Positions 10,859 to 25,023 of a stretch of DNA of 64,000 bases are shown here, piece after piece; positions within the stretch are counted from its first letter, which is position 1, and the number at the start of each line of letters is the position of its first letter. This stretch comes from an uncultured Erythrobacter sp. (GTDB lineage Bacteria > Pseudomonadota > Alphaproteobacteria > Sphingomonadales > Sphingomonadaceae): contig CANNCZ010000001.1 of assembly GCA_947503275.1 (NCBI GenBank), positions 496,001 to 560,000 on the forward strand, in the 5' to 3' direction. The notes beneath the pieces are model-generated. The model had not been told where the DNA came from. It saw only the letters and a list, made by a program, of their open reading frames with translations, and made no database searches. Made by a program: the position numbers and the translations under genes.

Positions 10859-10933
10859 TGGCTGGGGCGGCAGGGATCGAACCTGCGAATGCCGCTACCA
10901 AAAAGCGGTGCCTTACCACTTGGCGACGCCCCA
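10859..10933 (-). tRNA. tRNA-Gln (anticodon UUG)
   Basis: Read on the minus strand, a full cloverleaf is visible: acceptor TGGGGCG/CGCCCCA, D stem GCC/GGC, anticodon stem CCGCT/AGCGG with loop TTTTGGT (anticodon TTG), T arm GCAGG-TTCGATC-CCTGC, discriminator G, and an encoded 3' CCA at 10859-10861. No integrase or att duplication is seen beside it. Confidence 0.96.
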
Positions 10934-19395: not shown

Positions 19396-19770
19396 TCAAA
19401 AAATCTCGGCCTGCTGGTCTGTCAGCATTTGAACATATAGCGCGAAGTCCTCGCTCTTCGCCTGTTCCATGACGCAATGGATAGCGAGATCGTTTTCCGG
19501 GACAATCTTGATGAGCGAATACGGCACTCCATCGACACCATTTGAGGGCTTGATGAAGAACTCCTTCGCTCCGCAATCTCGGAGCAATTCGCCGCTCGTC
19601 GACGCGATCTCTTCGATCCTCTCAATCTCTCCTTCCTTGTAAGGTCGCTCCGACACTGAGAGGTATGGGACCTTCTCGTCAGATCCCGAAATGAACCATC
19701 GCGGTAGAAGGACTGCGAACGAGGTTACCGCCACTCCAAGGGCGAACCAGACGAGTTTCTGACGCCTCAA
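19396..19770 (-). CDS. Small membrane-anchored hypothetical protein
   Basis: A 124-residue protein with one N-terminal membrane helix ([21 protein letters not shown]) and a charged C-terminal domain containing two cysteines ([20 protein letters not shown]). The start overlaps the ilvE stop by 4 nt (ATGA-type), so it is translationally coupled to ilvE. I recognise no family. Topology suggests a periplasmic domain with a possible disulfide. Confidence 0.7.
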
Positions 19771-20846
19771 ACCCGCATCACCCAGCCGTGCTTGTCCTCA
19801 ACCCGGCCATTTTGCACGCCGACCAGCTTCTCGCGCATCTTATTGGCCATCTGACCGATGCCGCCGGTGCCGATGGTGAACTCGCCCGATGGTGAGGCCA
19901 CTGTGCCCACCGGCGTCACAACCGCGGCCGTGCCGCAGGCCAGCGTTTCCAGTAGCTCGCCACTTTCCGCCTCTTCGCGCCATTGCTGGATCGAATAGGG
20001 TTCCTCGCGCACGTCTAGCCCCTCTTCGCGCAGCATCGCGATCAGGCTGTCGCGGGTGATGCCGGGCAGGATTGTTCCGGTAAGGGGCGGGGTGATGACG
20101 CTGCCATCCTTGCGGACAAAGAACAGGTTCATGCCCCCGAGTTCTTCGACCCATTTCTTCTCCACCGCGTCCAAGAACACGACCTGATCGCATCCTTTCT
20201 CGATGGCTTCCGCTTGTGGGACCAGCGATGCCGCATAATTGCCGCCGGTTTTCGCCGCGCCGGTGCCGCCGGGGGCCGCGCGGACATAGTCCTGACTGAC
20301 CCAGATTTTGACTGGGTTCACGCCGCCTTTGAAATAGCTGCCGGATGATACGAGGATCACGACGAATTTGTATTGTTTGGCCGGACGAACGCCGAGGAAC
20401 GCCTCAGATGCGAACATGAAGGGGCGGATATACAGAGAGCCGCCTTCGGTGGATGGCATCCACTTTGCGTCGGTCTTCACCGCAAGCTGCACCGCTTCGA
20501 GGAAAAGCTCTTCGGGAATTTCGGGCATCGACATGCGCCGCGCACTGGCGTTGAAGCGGGCCGCATTCGCCTCTGGCCGGAACATCGCAAGGCCGCCATC
20601 CTCATGCGCGAACGCCTTCATCCCTTCGAAGATTTCCTGCGCATAGTGCAAAACGCTGGCCGCCGGATCGAGCGCGATGGGTTCGCGCGGGCCGATCTGA
20701 GCGGAATGCCAGCCGCCTTTTGCCTCATCATAGTCGATGGTGACCATGTGATCGGTAAAGACAGTGCCAAAACCTGGATCGACAATGGCCGCTTCGCGAT
20801 CAGCATCGGGCGTGGGTGAAGGGTGAGGGATCGTCGTGAATTGCAT
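19767..20846 (-). CDS. ilvE: Branched-chain amino acid aminotransferase
   Basis: A 359-residue class IV PLP enzyme that interconverts Leu/Ile/Val and their 2-oxo acids with glutamate. It is of the long, eukaryote-like BCAT type: LHYAQEIFEGMKAF, FNASARRMSMPE, the PLP lysine in GAAKTGGNYAASLV and ELGGMNLFFV. The ATG at 20846 is preferred. An open frame extends 145 codons further upstream, but that stretch is low-complexity, overlaps the divergent lipoprotein gene and is unlike the family. Confidence 0.93.
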   Translation of the reverse strand: MQFTTIPHPSPTPDADREAAIVDPGFGTVFTDHMVTIDYDEAKGGWHSAQIGPREPIALDPAASVLHYAQEIFEGMKAFAHEDGGLAMFRPEANAARFNASARRMSMPEIPEELFLEAVQLAVKTDAKWMPSTEGGSLYIRPFMFASEAFLGVRPAKQYKFVVILVSSGSYFKGGVNPVKIWVSQDYVRAAPGGTGAAKTGGNYAASLVPQAEAIEKGCDQVVFLDAVEKKWVEELGGMNLFFVRKDGSVITPPLTGTILPGITRDSLIAMLREEGLDVREEPYSIQQWREEAESGELLETLACGTAAVVTPVGTVASPSGEFTIGTGGIGQMANKMREKLVGVQNGRVEDKHGWVMRV

Positions 20847-20994
20847 GGGAGGGGCGAATAAAGAGGCTGCGCGCGCTGGGCAAGGGCGGTGATGCGGCTT
20901 CCCGTTATGAGAGCGGGTCAGCTTGCATTTTCCAACAAGCGCGAAGATGCTCCGTCGGCGCGCGGGTTTTTGTGCGCGATCCGGGGGAATAACA

Positions 20995-21708
20995 ATGAAA
21001 CTGGCTGTTGCAGGGTTGATGGCGATGGGATTTGCTGGGGGCCTTGCAGGCTGCGCGGAAAGCGGTCCGCCTGAGGATAACGCGAATGATGGGCCGCAAA
21101 AAGAAACGTCTGTGGCTGCAGAGGTGCCCGAAGCGGACGGCGCTGGGCAGGATGCGACCACTACAGAGCCAGCGGCCAAGTCAGACGAAAACGCCGTGAC
21201 ATGCGAATATCCGGTCAAGGCAGACGACACCGCAAACACTCTTGTCCAAAGGTTAGAGAGCGCCGCATCGCGCGAGGACATTCACATCGGGGAGGGCTTT
21301 TTCATACCCGGTGTGGTTTTGTGGGGCGATGATCCCGCTCGCAGGATCGAGGTCGTATTTGCTGAGGAGGATGGGAGCGGAACAGCGACCTATCTTGAAT
21401 TTGCAGACGGCGCGAAATGGACCGTCGGCGGGATCGCAATCGGAGACAGCGCCGCACGGGTTCAGCAACTCAACGGAGCCGCTTTCGGCTTTTACGGCTT
21501 TGAATGGGATTACGGTGGCAGTCTGATCGACATGGGCGCCGGAAGCCTCCGCGATCTGGGCGGATGTGCGCCGCGTCTCAGCCTCGCTTATGATTACGAG
21601 GAGGTCACACTTGCCGACGACTTTATCGGCGATCAGGCCGTATCGTCGGACGCAGAGGGACTTCCGGTGGATACGCTGGAAGTTAATCGGCTGGGCATCG
21701 TCTTTTAG
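20995..21708 (+). CDS. Putative lipoprotein, DUF1131-like or unassigned
   Basis: A 237-residue protein with a lipoprotein signal (hydrophobic core, then GGLAGC lipobox at about residue 19) and a disordered, acidic linker to about residue 65. The C-terminal domain begins near VTCEYPVKADDTA and contains GEGFFIPGVVLWGDDPARRIEVVF. A GGGGGAAT site precedes the ATG at 20995. No family is recognised with certainty. It is divergent from ilvE and followed by a strong hairpin. Expected location is a membrane-anchored periplasmic lipoprotein. Confidence 0.7.
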   Translation: MKLAVAGLMAMGFAGGLAGCAESGPPEDNANDGPQKETSVAAEVPEADGAGQDATTTEPAAKSDENAVTCEYPVKADDTANTLVQRLESAASREDIHIGEGFFIPGVVLWGDDPARRIEVVFAEEDGSGTATYLEFADGAKWTVGGIAIGDSAARVQQLNGAAFGFYGFEWDYGGSLIDMGAGSLRDLGGCAPRLSLAYDYEEVTLADDFIGDQAVSSDAEGLPVDTLEVNRLGIVF

Positions 21709-21734
21709 GCACAGACCAAAAACCTCCCAGCAAC

Positions 21735-21774
21735 AAAAAAGGGCTGTCTCTGCATGTGCAGGAGACAGCCCTTT
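21735..21774 (-). terminator. Strong intrinsic terminator of a minus-strand transcript
   Basis: A perfect 13-bp stem AAAGGGCTGTCTC/GAGACAGCCCTTT with an 11-nt loop. On the minus strand it is followed by six T. It may also act on the plus strand after the lipoprotein gene, but there the T-run is only three. The minus-strand transcript ending here would carry the 18-codon ORF at 21826-21882. Confidence 0.85.
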
Positions 21775-21825
21775 CATGGTCAGCGGCCGGAAGCGCCGCT
21801 CACGAAACCTTACTCGGTAAGGACG

Positions 21826-21882
21826 TTACCGAATATGCTCCGTAGGGATCTTCACCGACCTCGCTACTGAACCATGAGACAT
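21826..21882 (-). CDS. 18-codon ORF behind an extreme Shine-Dalgarno
   Basis: On the minus strand, GAAAGGAGGTGATCC lies 1 nt before an ATG (7 nt from the GGAGG core), which opens MSHGSVARSVKIPTEHIR and then TAA. The ribosome site pairs with about 15 nt of the alphaproteobacterial 16S 3' tail, much longer than any other site in the window. Small dyads and a strong intrinsic terminator (21735-21774) follow. It could be a small protein, a leader-type peptide or an RNA that titrates ribosomes. No gene lies downstream on this strand to be attenuated. Confidence 0.5.
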   Translation of the reverse strand: MSHGSVARSVKIPTEHIR

Positions 21883-22179
21883 CGGATCACCTCCTTTCGT
21901 GCTTTTAAGCCAAGACTCCGCCGTTTCATGGGGGGAGCCGAGAGCCGCGTTAGTCGCTGGCCTCAAGCACGTTTGTGAATCATGTGGATGAAGCACACAA
22001 GTCTTGTAATTAGTTTTTCCGCCGTCATACTCACTCGCCTGTCCAAAACGGGACGAAGCGAAGGCGCCTAGGGAAACCGAGGCGCCTTTTTCCGATTCCG
22101 CTCTGATTCAGGGCGCGGCTGTGGACGACTTGTGAACAAGCCTGTGGATATTAATGTATAGAATCAGTGGGGAGTGGGC
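21883..22179. other. Non-coding stretch with possible small RNA
   Basis: About 300 nt lacks any credible long ORF. It holds the 5' region of the minus-strand 18-codon transcript and the plus-strand terminator at 22061-22093. The plus strand at 21884-21898 reads GGATCACCTCCTTTC, identical to the 3' end of alphaproteobacterial 16S rRNA; the flanks are not rRNA. Confidence 0.5.
22061..22093 (+). terminator. Intrinsic terminator with no obvious upstream gene
   Basis: AAGGCGCCT and AGGCGCCTT flank a 9-10 nt loop and run into TTTTT on the plus strand. The arms are themselves palindromic. No coding sequence precedes it within 350 nt on this strand, so it may end a small plus-strand RNA or long read-through from the lipoprotein gene. 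Confidence 0.65.
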
Positions 22180-22752
22180 CTAGCGGCAGTCCTCGATCAC
22201 GCGGCTGATCTCTACCCATGCGGGGACGTAGAGCGTGCGCTCGCCTTCAACGCCGATTGCGACGCGGCCTTTGGTGATGGCCATAGCATCCAAAATCGGA
22301 TCTCGCGGGTCCAGGATGGCCGCAACCAAGCGCAGATTGTTGTCAACCGGCGGCGCTTGAAGCTGGCGTGTCGTGGTCTCTGTCGTAATGCTCATCACTC
22401 GCGTTGCCCCGGTTTGTGAGCCTATCACCCGCCCGAGGCCAATCTGGCGCGTGCTTTTGTCGCATCGCATGATGAATTCGAAATTGTTGCCGACACCATA
22501 TGTCGCCAGCGTCTCATTGGGATCATTCGCATAGTTCCACGTGCCCGGCGTCTGAGGCGCATCGAGATAGCTGTCATATCGCGGCTCTTGCACAACCGGG
22601 GGCGGCGCAGGCGTTGGAGTGGGTGCAGGGGCAGGTGCCGGGCGAGCAACGGGTGCAGGCGCGGGAGTGGGCTGCGTCACACTGGGCACACAGGCGGCAA
22701 TTCCAAAGGTCAGCGCAACAGCGCCGGCGGCATGCAAATAGGTCGCTTTCAT
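22180..22752 (-). CDS. Putative lipoprotein with Pro/Ala linker
   Basis: A 190-residue protein with a lipoprotein signal ending GIAAC at about residue 20, then a Pro/Ala-rich wall-spanning linker (about residues 25-55), then a globular domain (TYGVGNNFEFIMRCDKSTRQIGLGRV onward). The ATG at 22752 starts the signal peptide; the 20 codons upstream do not fit. The domain has Cys in FIMRCDKS and a C-terminal EDCR, a possible disulfide. No family recognised. Divergent from tlyA with only 34 nt between starts. Confidence 0.72.
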   Translation of the reverse strand: MKATYLHAAGAVALTFGIAACVPSVTQPTPAPAPVARPAPAPAPTPTPAPPPVVQEPRYDSYLDAPQTPGTWNYANDPNETLATYGVGNNFEFIMRCDKSTRQIGLGRVIGSQTGATRVMSITTETTTRQLQAPPVDNNLRLVAAILDPRDPILDAMAITKGRVAIGVEGERTLYVPAWVEISRVIEDCR

Positions 22753-24398: not shown

Positions 24399-24677
24399 TT
24401 AGGCAGCTTCACACGCCGCGGCGCAGCAGCCTTCAGCGGCGCAGCAACCAGCTGCACAGCAGCCTTCAGCGGCACAGCAAGCAGCTGCACAGCAACCTTC
24501 AGCAGCGCAACCTTCAGCGGCACAGCAGCCTGCTGCACAGCAGCCAGCGGCGCAATCAGCGACAGCAGTTGTGTCTGCGTCGGTTGCAGCTTCGTCAGCA
24601 GGAGCCGAGCAAGCAGCAGTTGCGAGAGCGAGACCACCAGAAACGGCGAGCATCGATGCAAAGTTTGTCTTTTTCAT
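24399..24677 (-). CDS. Cys-Cys repeat lipoprotein
   Basis: A 92-residue protein. The first 24 residues form a lipoprotein signal (MKKTNFASMLAVSGGLALATAAC), followed by a short acidic spacer. The remaining half is built almost only from Cys, Ala and Glu/Gly: about seventeen Cys, mostly as CC pairs spaced by AAG, AAEG or AAA. The DNA shows direct repeats of period 33 (11 residues) starting near 24430, 24463 and 24496. The ATG at 24677 starts the signal; upstream codons do not fit. Lipid anchoring plus dense CC pairs suggests extracytoplasmic metal binding or a thiol sink. Not a known metallothionein type to me. Confidence 0.8.
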   Translation of the reverse strand: MKKTNFASMLAVSGGLALATAACSAPADEAATDADTTAVADCAAGCCAAGCCAAEGCAAEGCCAAACCAAEGCCAAGCCAAEGCCAAACEAA

Positions 24678-25023
24678 AAATCTGTTTCCCTCATTGAACT
24701 CTGCCCACACAGCATAAGCTCAGTTGATAGAGTAAGGCGCGTGGACTTGTTTCTCACCATAAAGCGCCCCGAATCACGGCAAGAATGTGGCGACGCTATC
24801 ACAATGATTGCAAAGCGCACATGCCCTTATGTTGCATTTTGTGGATTCTTACCCGCAATCGCCCGAAAATGCGCCAATTGGGGGCACCGCTCGCATCAAA
24901 ATTTGCGCTCACCTGTCCCTAGTGTATCGCTTGCAACTGTGTGGTTAGCTTACGAATCACGCTTCGGGTTAGGGGCATAGATACGGGCGGTGAGGCAGTC
25001 GCCTTTACCGACCGGGAGAGACA
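24678..25023. other. Intergenic region, promoters only
   Basis: 346 nt between the divergent Cys-rich lipoprotein and tspO genes. No ORF, RNA fold or repeat stands out; it should hold the two promoters. Confidence 0.5.

Follow-up and report, generated by a model that had tools for sequence, protein, structure and literature searches.

On the minus strand of the window, by which we mean the whole 64,000-nucleotide stretch of an uncultured Erythrobacter sp. analysed here, an open reading frame (ORF) of 18 codons stands behind a very strong Shine-Dalgarno (SD) sequence and is followed by a terminator. What could so short a frame be for? An earlier note had considered a new small protein, an RNA that captures 30S subunits, and a plus-strand RNA whose copy of the anti-SD sequesters ribosome sites. 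We compared the locus with its relatives in the genus, the family and the class. We propose that it encodes a stand-alone RNA that depends on ribosome loading and on short, bounded translation and not on the peptide, a reading to which we assign a probability of about 0.5.

Layout of the locus and strength of the Shine-Dalgarno

The predicted RNA covers positions 21735..21966 of the minus strand (about 230 nt). Its 5' end was estimated from the alignment of the genus loci, and its 3' end was taken from the terminator. The SD GAAAGGAGGTGATCC (21884..21898, minus strand) is complementary to the whole single-stranded tail of the 16S rRNA and occurs class-wide. One G separates it from the ATG start codon (21882-21880), with which the ORF MSHGSVARSVKIPTEHIR-stop (21826..21882, minus strand) begins. 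The RNA ends in an intrinsic terminator (21735..21771, minus strand), a folded hairpin with its stem at 21741-21771 followed by six T (21735-21740), and a terminator is present in 110/118 class representatives. The minus-strand SD, ATG, 18-codon ORF and terminator described in the earlier note can thus all be read at 21735-21898. A scan of 21500-22300 for simple consensus motifs detected no promoter and no terminator; in the computed fold the terminator stem carries a one-base bulge, which may be why the scan missed it. Upstream of the SD lies a 5' domain (21899..21966, minus strand), which by eye is found in most of the family sequences seen and is absent from L036-L038, L043-L048 and the rest of the class. 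The RNA strand as a whole folds better than 200/200 shuffles (z -4.0).

Among the 6552 ATG, GTG and TTG sites in the window, the start of this ORF forms the strongest duplex with the 16S tail, at -28.8 kcal/mol. The next-best start that does not use the same SD reaches -17.3 kcal/mol. The 15-mer GAAAGGAGGTGATCC occurs once, at up to 1 mismatch, in the 3.4-Mb genome, a sequence that apparently lacks rRNA; a search of this sequence with the SSU rRNA families gave no match. The tail GGATCACCTCCTTTC was accordingly checked in alphaproteobacterial plasmid records. All 36 nt of a 16S end were matched in 40/40 records listed, of 535 with a match, and the plasmid records that carry it include Sphingomonas paeninsulae, Rhodobacter, Rhizobium and Azospirillum. 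The ranking of starts and the plasmid records together uphold the claim that the SD is the complement of the entire 16S tail. In the computed folds the SD is unpaired at a mean of 0.45, compared with 0.38 in a control with shuffled downstream sequence, and in the RNAalifold structure the SD and start region is partly paired. This modelled openness is only middling, a point against the proposed reading, and makes a weak argument for ribosome loading.

Relation to the Rfam family CC2171

We found that the window matches the Rfam family RF01867 (CC2171) on the same strand with 53.8 bits (E 2.3e-10), end to end over positions 1-159 of the 159 in the model. This score lies below the curated gathering score of 75, and Rfam at the gathering threshold finds only a tRNA in the window. 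The sole tRNA found there is tRNA-Gln (ttg), at 10859-10933 (minus strand). Since the match is full length and its score remains under the cut-off, the RNA is, as far as the letters allow a judgement, a divergent relative of RF01867 and not a formal member.

When 20 relatives were scanned at a permissive threshold, all of them matched RF01867 (19 at E up to 0.025, L080 at 0.38), and 5/20 exceeded its cut-off. RF01867 was detected in 94/387 class genomes at E<=1e-3 and over the cut-off in 14/387; from 14 control genomes, Caulobacter vibrioides alone gave a match. These counts suggest that the curated family is narrower than the real one and that the gathering score of 75 hides most of it. CC2171 and the window RNA are alike in the layout of SD, start, closing helix and terminator, whereas the 5' domain is longer in the window RNA. 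Judged from these comparisons of sequence, the locus is a gene for a structured small RNA that resembles CC2171 of Caulobacter and has relatives across the Alphaproteobacteria.

CC2171 reportedly goes back to tiling-array work by Landt et al. 2008. RF01867 is filed in Rfam as an sRNA, and the available part of the entry does not mention an ORF. In the literature excerpts examined, the Rfam 15 paper lists CC2171/RF01867 in a table, and an sRNA of this name is predicted for Mesorhizobium huakuii. According to the available text of Schrader et al. 2014 (PMC4117421), most Caulobacter intergenic ncRNAs are untranslated and two predicted ones are translated. The ORF is not described in the excerpts of work on sphingomonad and Caulobacter sRNAs, extended SDs and short-ORF sRNAs (including PMC4117421, PMC11005374 and PMC5988900), nor in those of PMC10117765, PMC12559287 and PMC7717549. 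Within these excerpts, translation of the CC2171 family would be previously undescribed, which is not certain, since the pair of translated ncRNAs in Schrader et al. could include CC2171.

Distribution across the Alphaproteobacteria

By blastn (E<=0.01), the locus was present in all 37 genus genomes searched (37/61 genomes in total) and in 0/24 genomes from other families of the order. These 24 genomes were searched by blastn, and the wider spread came from pattern and CM searches. The pattern GGAGGTGATCCGATGTCTCATGG (up to 3 mismatches) matched in 205/249 family genomes and 84/96 genera, and its reversed control had no match in the family-genome table. The 44/249 family genomes without a match to GGAGGTGATCCGATGTCTCATGG, like the class genomes without a match in the searches below and in the RF01867 search, may reflect loss or divergence. 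At the level of the class, AAAGGAGGTGATCCRRTGTCTCAT (up to 3 mismatches) matched in 51/289 genomes and the SD/start pattern GAAAGGAGGTGNTCNNNTGTC (up to 1 mismatch) in 105/387, with control matches in six genomes. A scan of named genomes returned at least 119 stretches; among the 80 titles listed, 77 name alphaproteobacteria, and the other three belong to MAGs with no label beyond Proteobacteria. The class counts, obtained by pattern searches and a strictly filtered CM search, are probably low.

The SD/start pair pointed out by the earlier note is therefore kept in relatives, as in the 205 family and 105 class genomes above, and a terminator retained without the SD/ATG pair was not found in the relatives compared. 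We also observed two SD/start pattern matches each in G150, G699 and G706; some genomes seem to carry two copies.

Conservation of the start and stop codons

A start codon follows the SD at constant spacing in 265/269 loci (ATG 163, GTG 97, TTG 5). The regular expression behind this count demanded NTG and restricted the inner SD base to A or G, and these columns are therefore not independent of it. When the inner SD base and the first base of the start were left free, the matches listed, inspected by eye, carried A or G at the inner position, one poor match (G680) excepted, and A, G or T at the first base of the start. The four loci missed by the expression (L036, L131, L132 and L145) carry close variants on inspection. 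L162 is truncated at the edge of its locus, and L081 and L270 are repeats of the window's own locus.

The stop is kept as well. The first in-frame stop falls within codons 14-36 in 118/120 representatives (identity below 70% over 75 nt), and never earlier. By comparison, the other frames have their first stop in this range in 34/119 and 39/120, and shuffles in 42 ± 5 (maximum 61 in 2000 shuffles). Loci from a pattern that ends at codon 2 gave a stop in range in 62/63, against 20 and 20 in the other frames, and the CM-hit loci gave 52/53, against 14/52 and 17/53. All three stop codons and three start codons are used among the loci. This conservation of the stop suggests that the ORF is translated.

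L062, L115 and L222 look like another gene, with 55-59 codons and a similar SD. Rows of 50 codons or more were retained in the stop-position counts and left out of the codon-position, synonymous, GANTC, P1, SD-openness/terminator and neighbour counts. The gene in these three loci has a signal-peptide-like start, a cysteine and a near-perfect SD.

The conserved stop bears first on a 30S trap, which survives best among the alternatives and is still unlikely. Here an SD pairing of 13-15 bp and the helix behind the start would hold non-productive 30S subunits and buffer the free pool. An SD complement spanning the whole 16S tail fits such a trap, and so does the helix P1 directly behind the start. 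Furthermore, the SD letters beyond GGAGG are kept, and the free inner base is A or G, both of which pair with U (matches listed, by eye, with one exception). A trap does not need a stop at 14-36 codons, yet this is what 118/120 representatives have. Since the stop is conserved, a pure 30S trap is insufficient as an explanation. In E. coli, rpsO/S15 is a case of translational entrapment. The locus resembles it in a reachable SD and in structure right behind this SD that would hinder accommodation. In rpsO/S15, however, the target of regulation is its own long gene and a protein ligand takes part, whereas no such ligand is known for the window RNA.

Ranked behind the trap, and doubtful too, is a sponge whose GGAGG would bind other sRNAs at their CCUCC cores, on the model of CrfA and SisA-D in Caulobacter. 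The available text of that work reports that the G/A-rich CrfA loop binds the alphaR8 core UUUCCUCCCU (PMC12559287), and the two cases would be alike in a class-wide pairing of SD-like and anti-SD-like RNAs (CrfA with alphaR8, SisA-D). AlphaR8 carries the anti-SD sense, whereas the window RNA carries the SD sense over the whole 16S tail, together with a start and a stop. The alphaR8 (SisA/MmgR) core, as given in the excerpt of PMC12559287, was not found on the window RNA strand. By eye, UUUCCUCCCU pairs with GGAGG only and not with the kept UGAUCC, and a sponge would require neither the start nor the stop.

Neutral drift of the encoded peptide

A micropeptide gene, with the 14-36-residue peptide as its product, would account for the conserved start and stop. 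It would also account for peptides that look alike within lineages, such as LERGVGT in Rhodobacterales. This likeness, seen by eye, lies at the nucleotide level and did not withstand the codon-position and neutral-expectation tests. Differences by codon position in the ORF were 149/156/121 (59 pairs), without an excess at the third position; in the ilvE control, drawn from the loci holding ilvE, they were 174/133/569 (29 pairs). Among the codons with a single change, counted from codon 4 on, 66 were synonymous and 164 nonsynonymous, and the neutral expectation is 68.1 synonymous. Pairs were taken within six groups and summed, and the synonymous counts equalled the neutral expectation in every large group.

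These counts give no sign of a peptide under selection, as a dual-function sRNA would have. The codon pattern raised by the earlier note divides into two parts: the start and stop are kept, and a synonymous excess is missing. On the substitutions compared, the amino acids of the peptide drift as if neutral, and the new small protein of the earlier note, understood as a selected peptide, has become improbable.

We also noticed, in L112, L124, L119, L129 and others, a recurring nucleotide motif similar to GGAGCAGCCTC close to the 3' end of the ORF. It reads EQPL or EQPS in the peptide and is a possible pairing site. In Bradyrhizobium and similar loci (L120, L191, L201) the ORF has 14 codons, and a tRNA gene lies within a few hundred bases.

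A comparable small RNA from the Alphaproteobacteria is rnTrpL/peTrpL of Sinorhizobium meliloti, in which a very short frame is translated. In the available text on it (PMC10117765), rnTrpL is leaderless, begins at AUG, derives from the trp attenuator and encodes a peptide with a function of its own. In contrast, the SD of the window RNA is maximal, the gene downstream of this RNA is not fixed, and its peptide shows no sign of selection.

Genomic neighbours and the upstream block

Many family loci are ordered lipoprotein gene, RNA, ilvE, and the RNA could then act on a downstream gene (ilvE in the family) as its leader or attenuator. The ilvE motif lies downstream on the same strand in 55/89 Sphingomonadaceae loci with enough sequence, but was not found within 1.5 kb in 34/89. 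In the window a convergent gene (20923-21708, plus strand) comes next downstream. It intervenes before the next same-strand gene, an ilvE-like aminotransferase ORF at 19767-21281 (minus strand) whose real start by eye lies at about 20.85 kb. The remark that no downstream gene exists is thus right for the window, where the convergent gene comes next, and wrong for the 55/89 family loci with a same-strand ilvE motif. Across 54 class loci the neighbours differ, the downstream gene being on the plus strand in 29/53 and on the minus strand in 24/53. The terminator, found in 110/118, stands after the RNA. We found no fixed same-strand downstream gene, which a leader or attenuator would have. Varied neighbours on either strand argue for a stand-alone unit and make a leader very improbable.

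The window also holds a small lipoprotein-like ORF at 24399-24710 (minus strand), with cysteine-rich CCAAEG/CCAAG repeats.

Upstream of the RNA, the aligned genus loci share a conserved block (21977..22007, minus strand), which is a putative promoter. The block contains the palindrome ACAAG-N-CTTGT (21997-22007, minus strand) and a GANTC site (21977-21981, minus strand), and both are kept across much of the Sphingomonadaceae. GANTC was found upstream in 43/53 Sphingomonadaceae representatives (shuffle mean 18, maximum 27). Outside the Sphingomonadaceae it occurs at -110..-10 in 55/137, which is not significant against a shuffle mean of 44 (maximum 58), and in the control stretch at -500..-400 in 13/134. 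GANTC is the CcrM methylation site, and CcrM/GcrA-type, cell-cycle-timed transcription of the RNA is therefore a possible lead, not a result.

Farther upstream of the RNA, a terminator-like hairpin with a T run at about 22065-22093 (plus strand) is partly kept in genus relatives and could serve to end antisense transcripts. This hairpin is overlapped by a weak sX12 match (E 0.069), which falls well short of its cut-off.

Secondary structure and the strand of the RNA

The closing helix P1 spans a long range. Its 5' arm (21867..21876, minus strand) covers codons 3-6 and starts three nucleotides past the start codon, and its 3' arm (21775..21783, minus strand) lies just ahead of the terminator; both arms are invariant in the 37 family sequences. 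P2 (5' arm 21855..21860, 3' arm 21785..21790, minus strand) is weakly supported, with 93.7% of cells paired and no two-sided changes. The P3/P4 hairpin (21801..21844, minus strand), which has the stop codon near its top, covaries, with two-sided changes in 12/16 pairs among the 37 family sequences. The whole structure beats 500/500 shuffles on all five measures. It has 96% of its cells paired, compared with 30-45% in slid versions.

P1 hardly varies within the family and so carries no covariation signal there. Among 94 class representatives, the own strands of P1 have a pairing advantage of 2.1 kcal/mol over exchanged strands (z -8.7), and 0/5000 permutations were as low. RNAalifold proposes other pairs in the invariant part, including the P2 region and part of the SD. 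The structure alignment comprised the 37 sequences of similar length out of 56 references kept, and five Sphingomonadaceae loci without GACCATG (L182, L217, L246, L249 and L263) were left out of it.

Read on the minus strand, the covarying helix contains numerous G-U pairs. These would be C/A mismatches on the plus strand, which indicates that the minus strand is the RNA strand. A plus-strand RNA carrying the anti-SD copy, in favour of which the hairpin with its T run at about 22065-22093 could be cited, is hardly credible, since the G-U pairs fit the minus strand, the conserved start and stop are read there only, and the Rfam match lies there as well.

Proposed mechanism and significance

What the comparisons show to be kept is a maximal SD, a start, a stop 14-36 codons on, a long-range closing helix and a terminator. 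For the stand-alone RNA that we propose, these parts would work together as follows. The 30S subunits would load at the SD, and P1 would have to open for a subunit to settle on the start. The elongating ribosome would unwind P1, P2 and the 5' arm of P3/P4, and would halt near the top of P3/P4, ahead of the terminator. Translation would thereby toggle the RNA between two folds, one closed and the other open and occupied by a ribosome. The RNA may in this way read the initiation capacity of the cell, with the peptide as a by-product. The acting agent would be the open form or the ribosome on it, and candidate outputs are the stability of the RNA or the pairing of released strands with other RNAs.

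We put forward more tentatively, as a possibility somewhat less secure than bounded translation itself, that the act of translation is the working part, and that the locus is a class-wide sensor of initiation capacity that has been filed as a narrow sRNA family. In a plainer version, the kept stop may do no more than prevent ribosomes from reaching the 3' structure and the terminator.

If the proposal is true, a family listed as a Caulobacter sRNA would be far wider, reaching across the Alphaproteobacteria, and would be translated. The locus would offer a natural case of a start and a stop under selection without selection on the peptide. It would also make testable whether moving a ribosome through a short frame can be the function of a stand-alone RNA.
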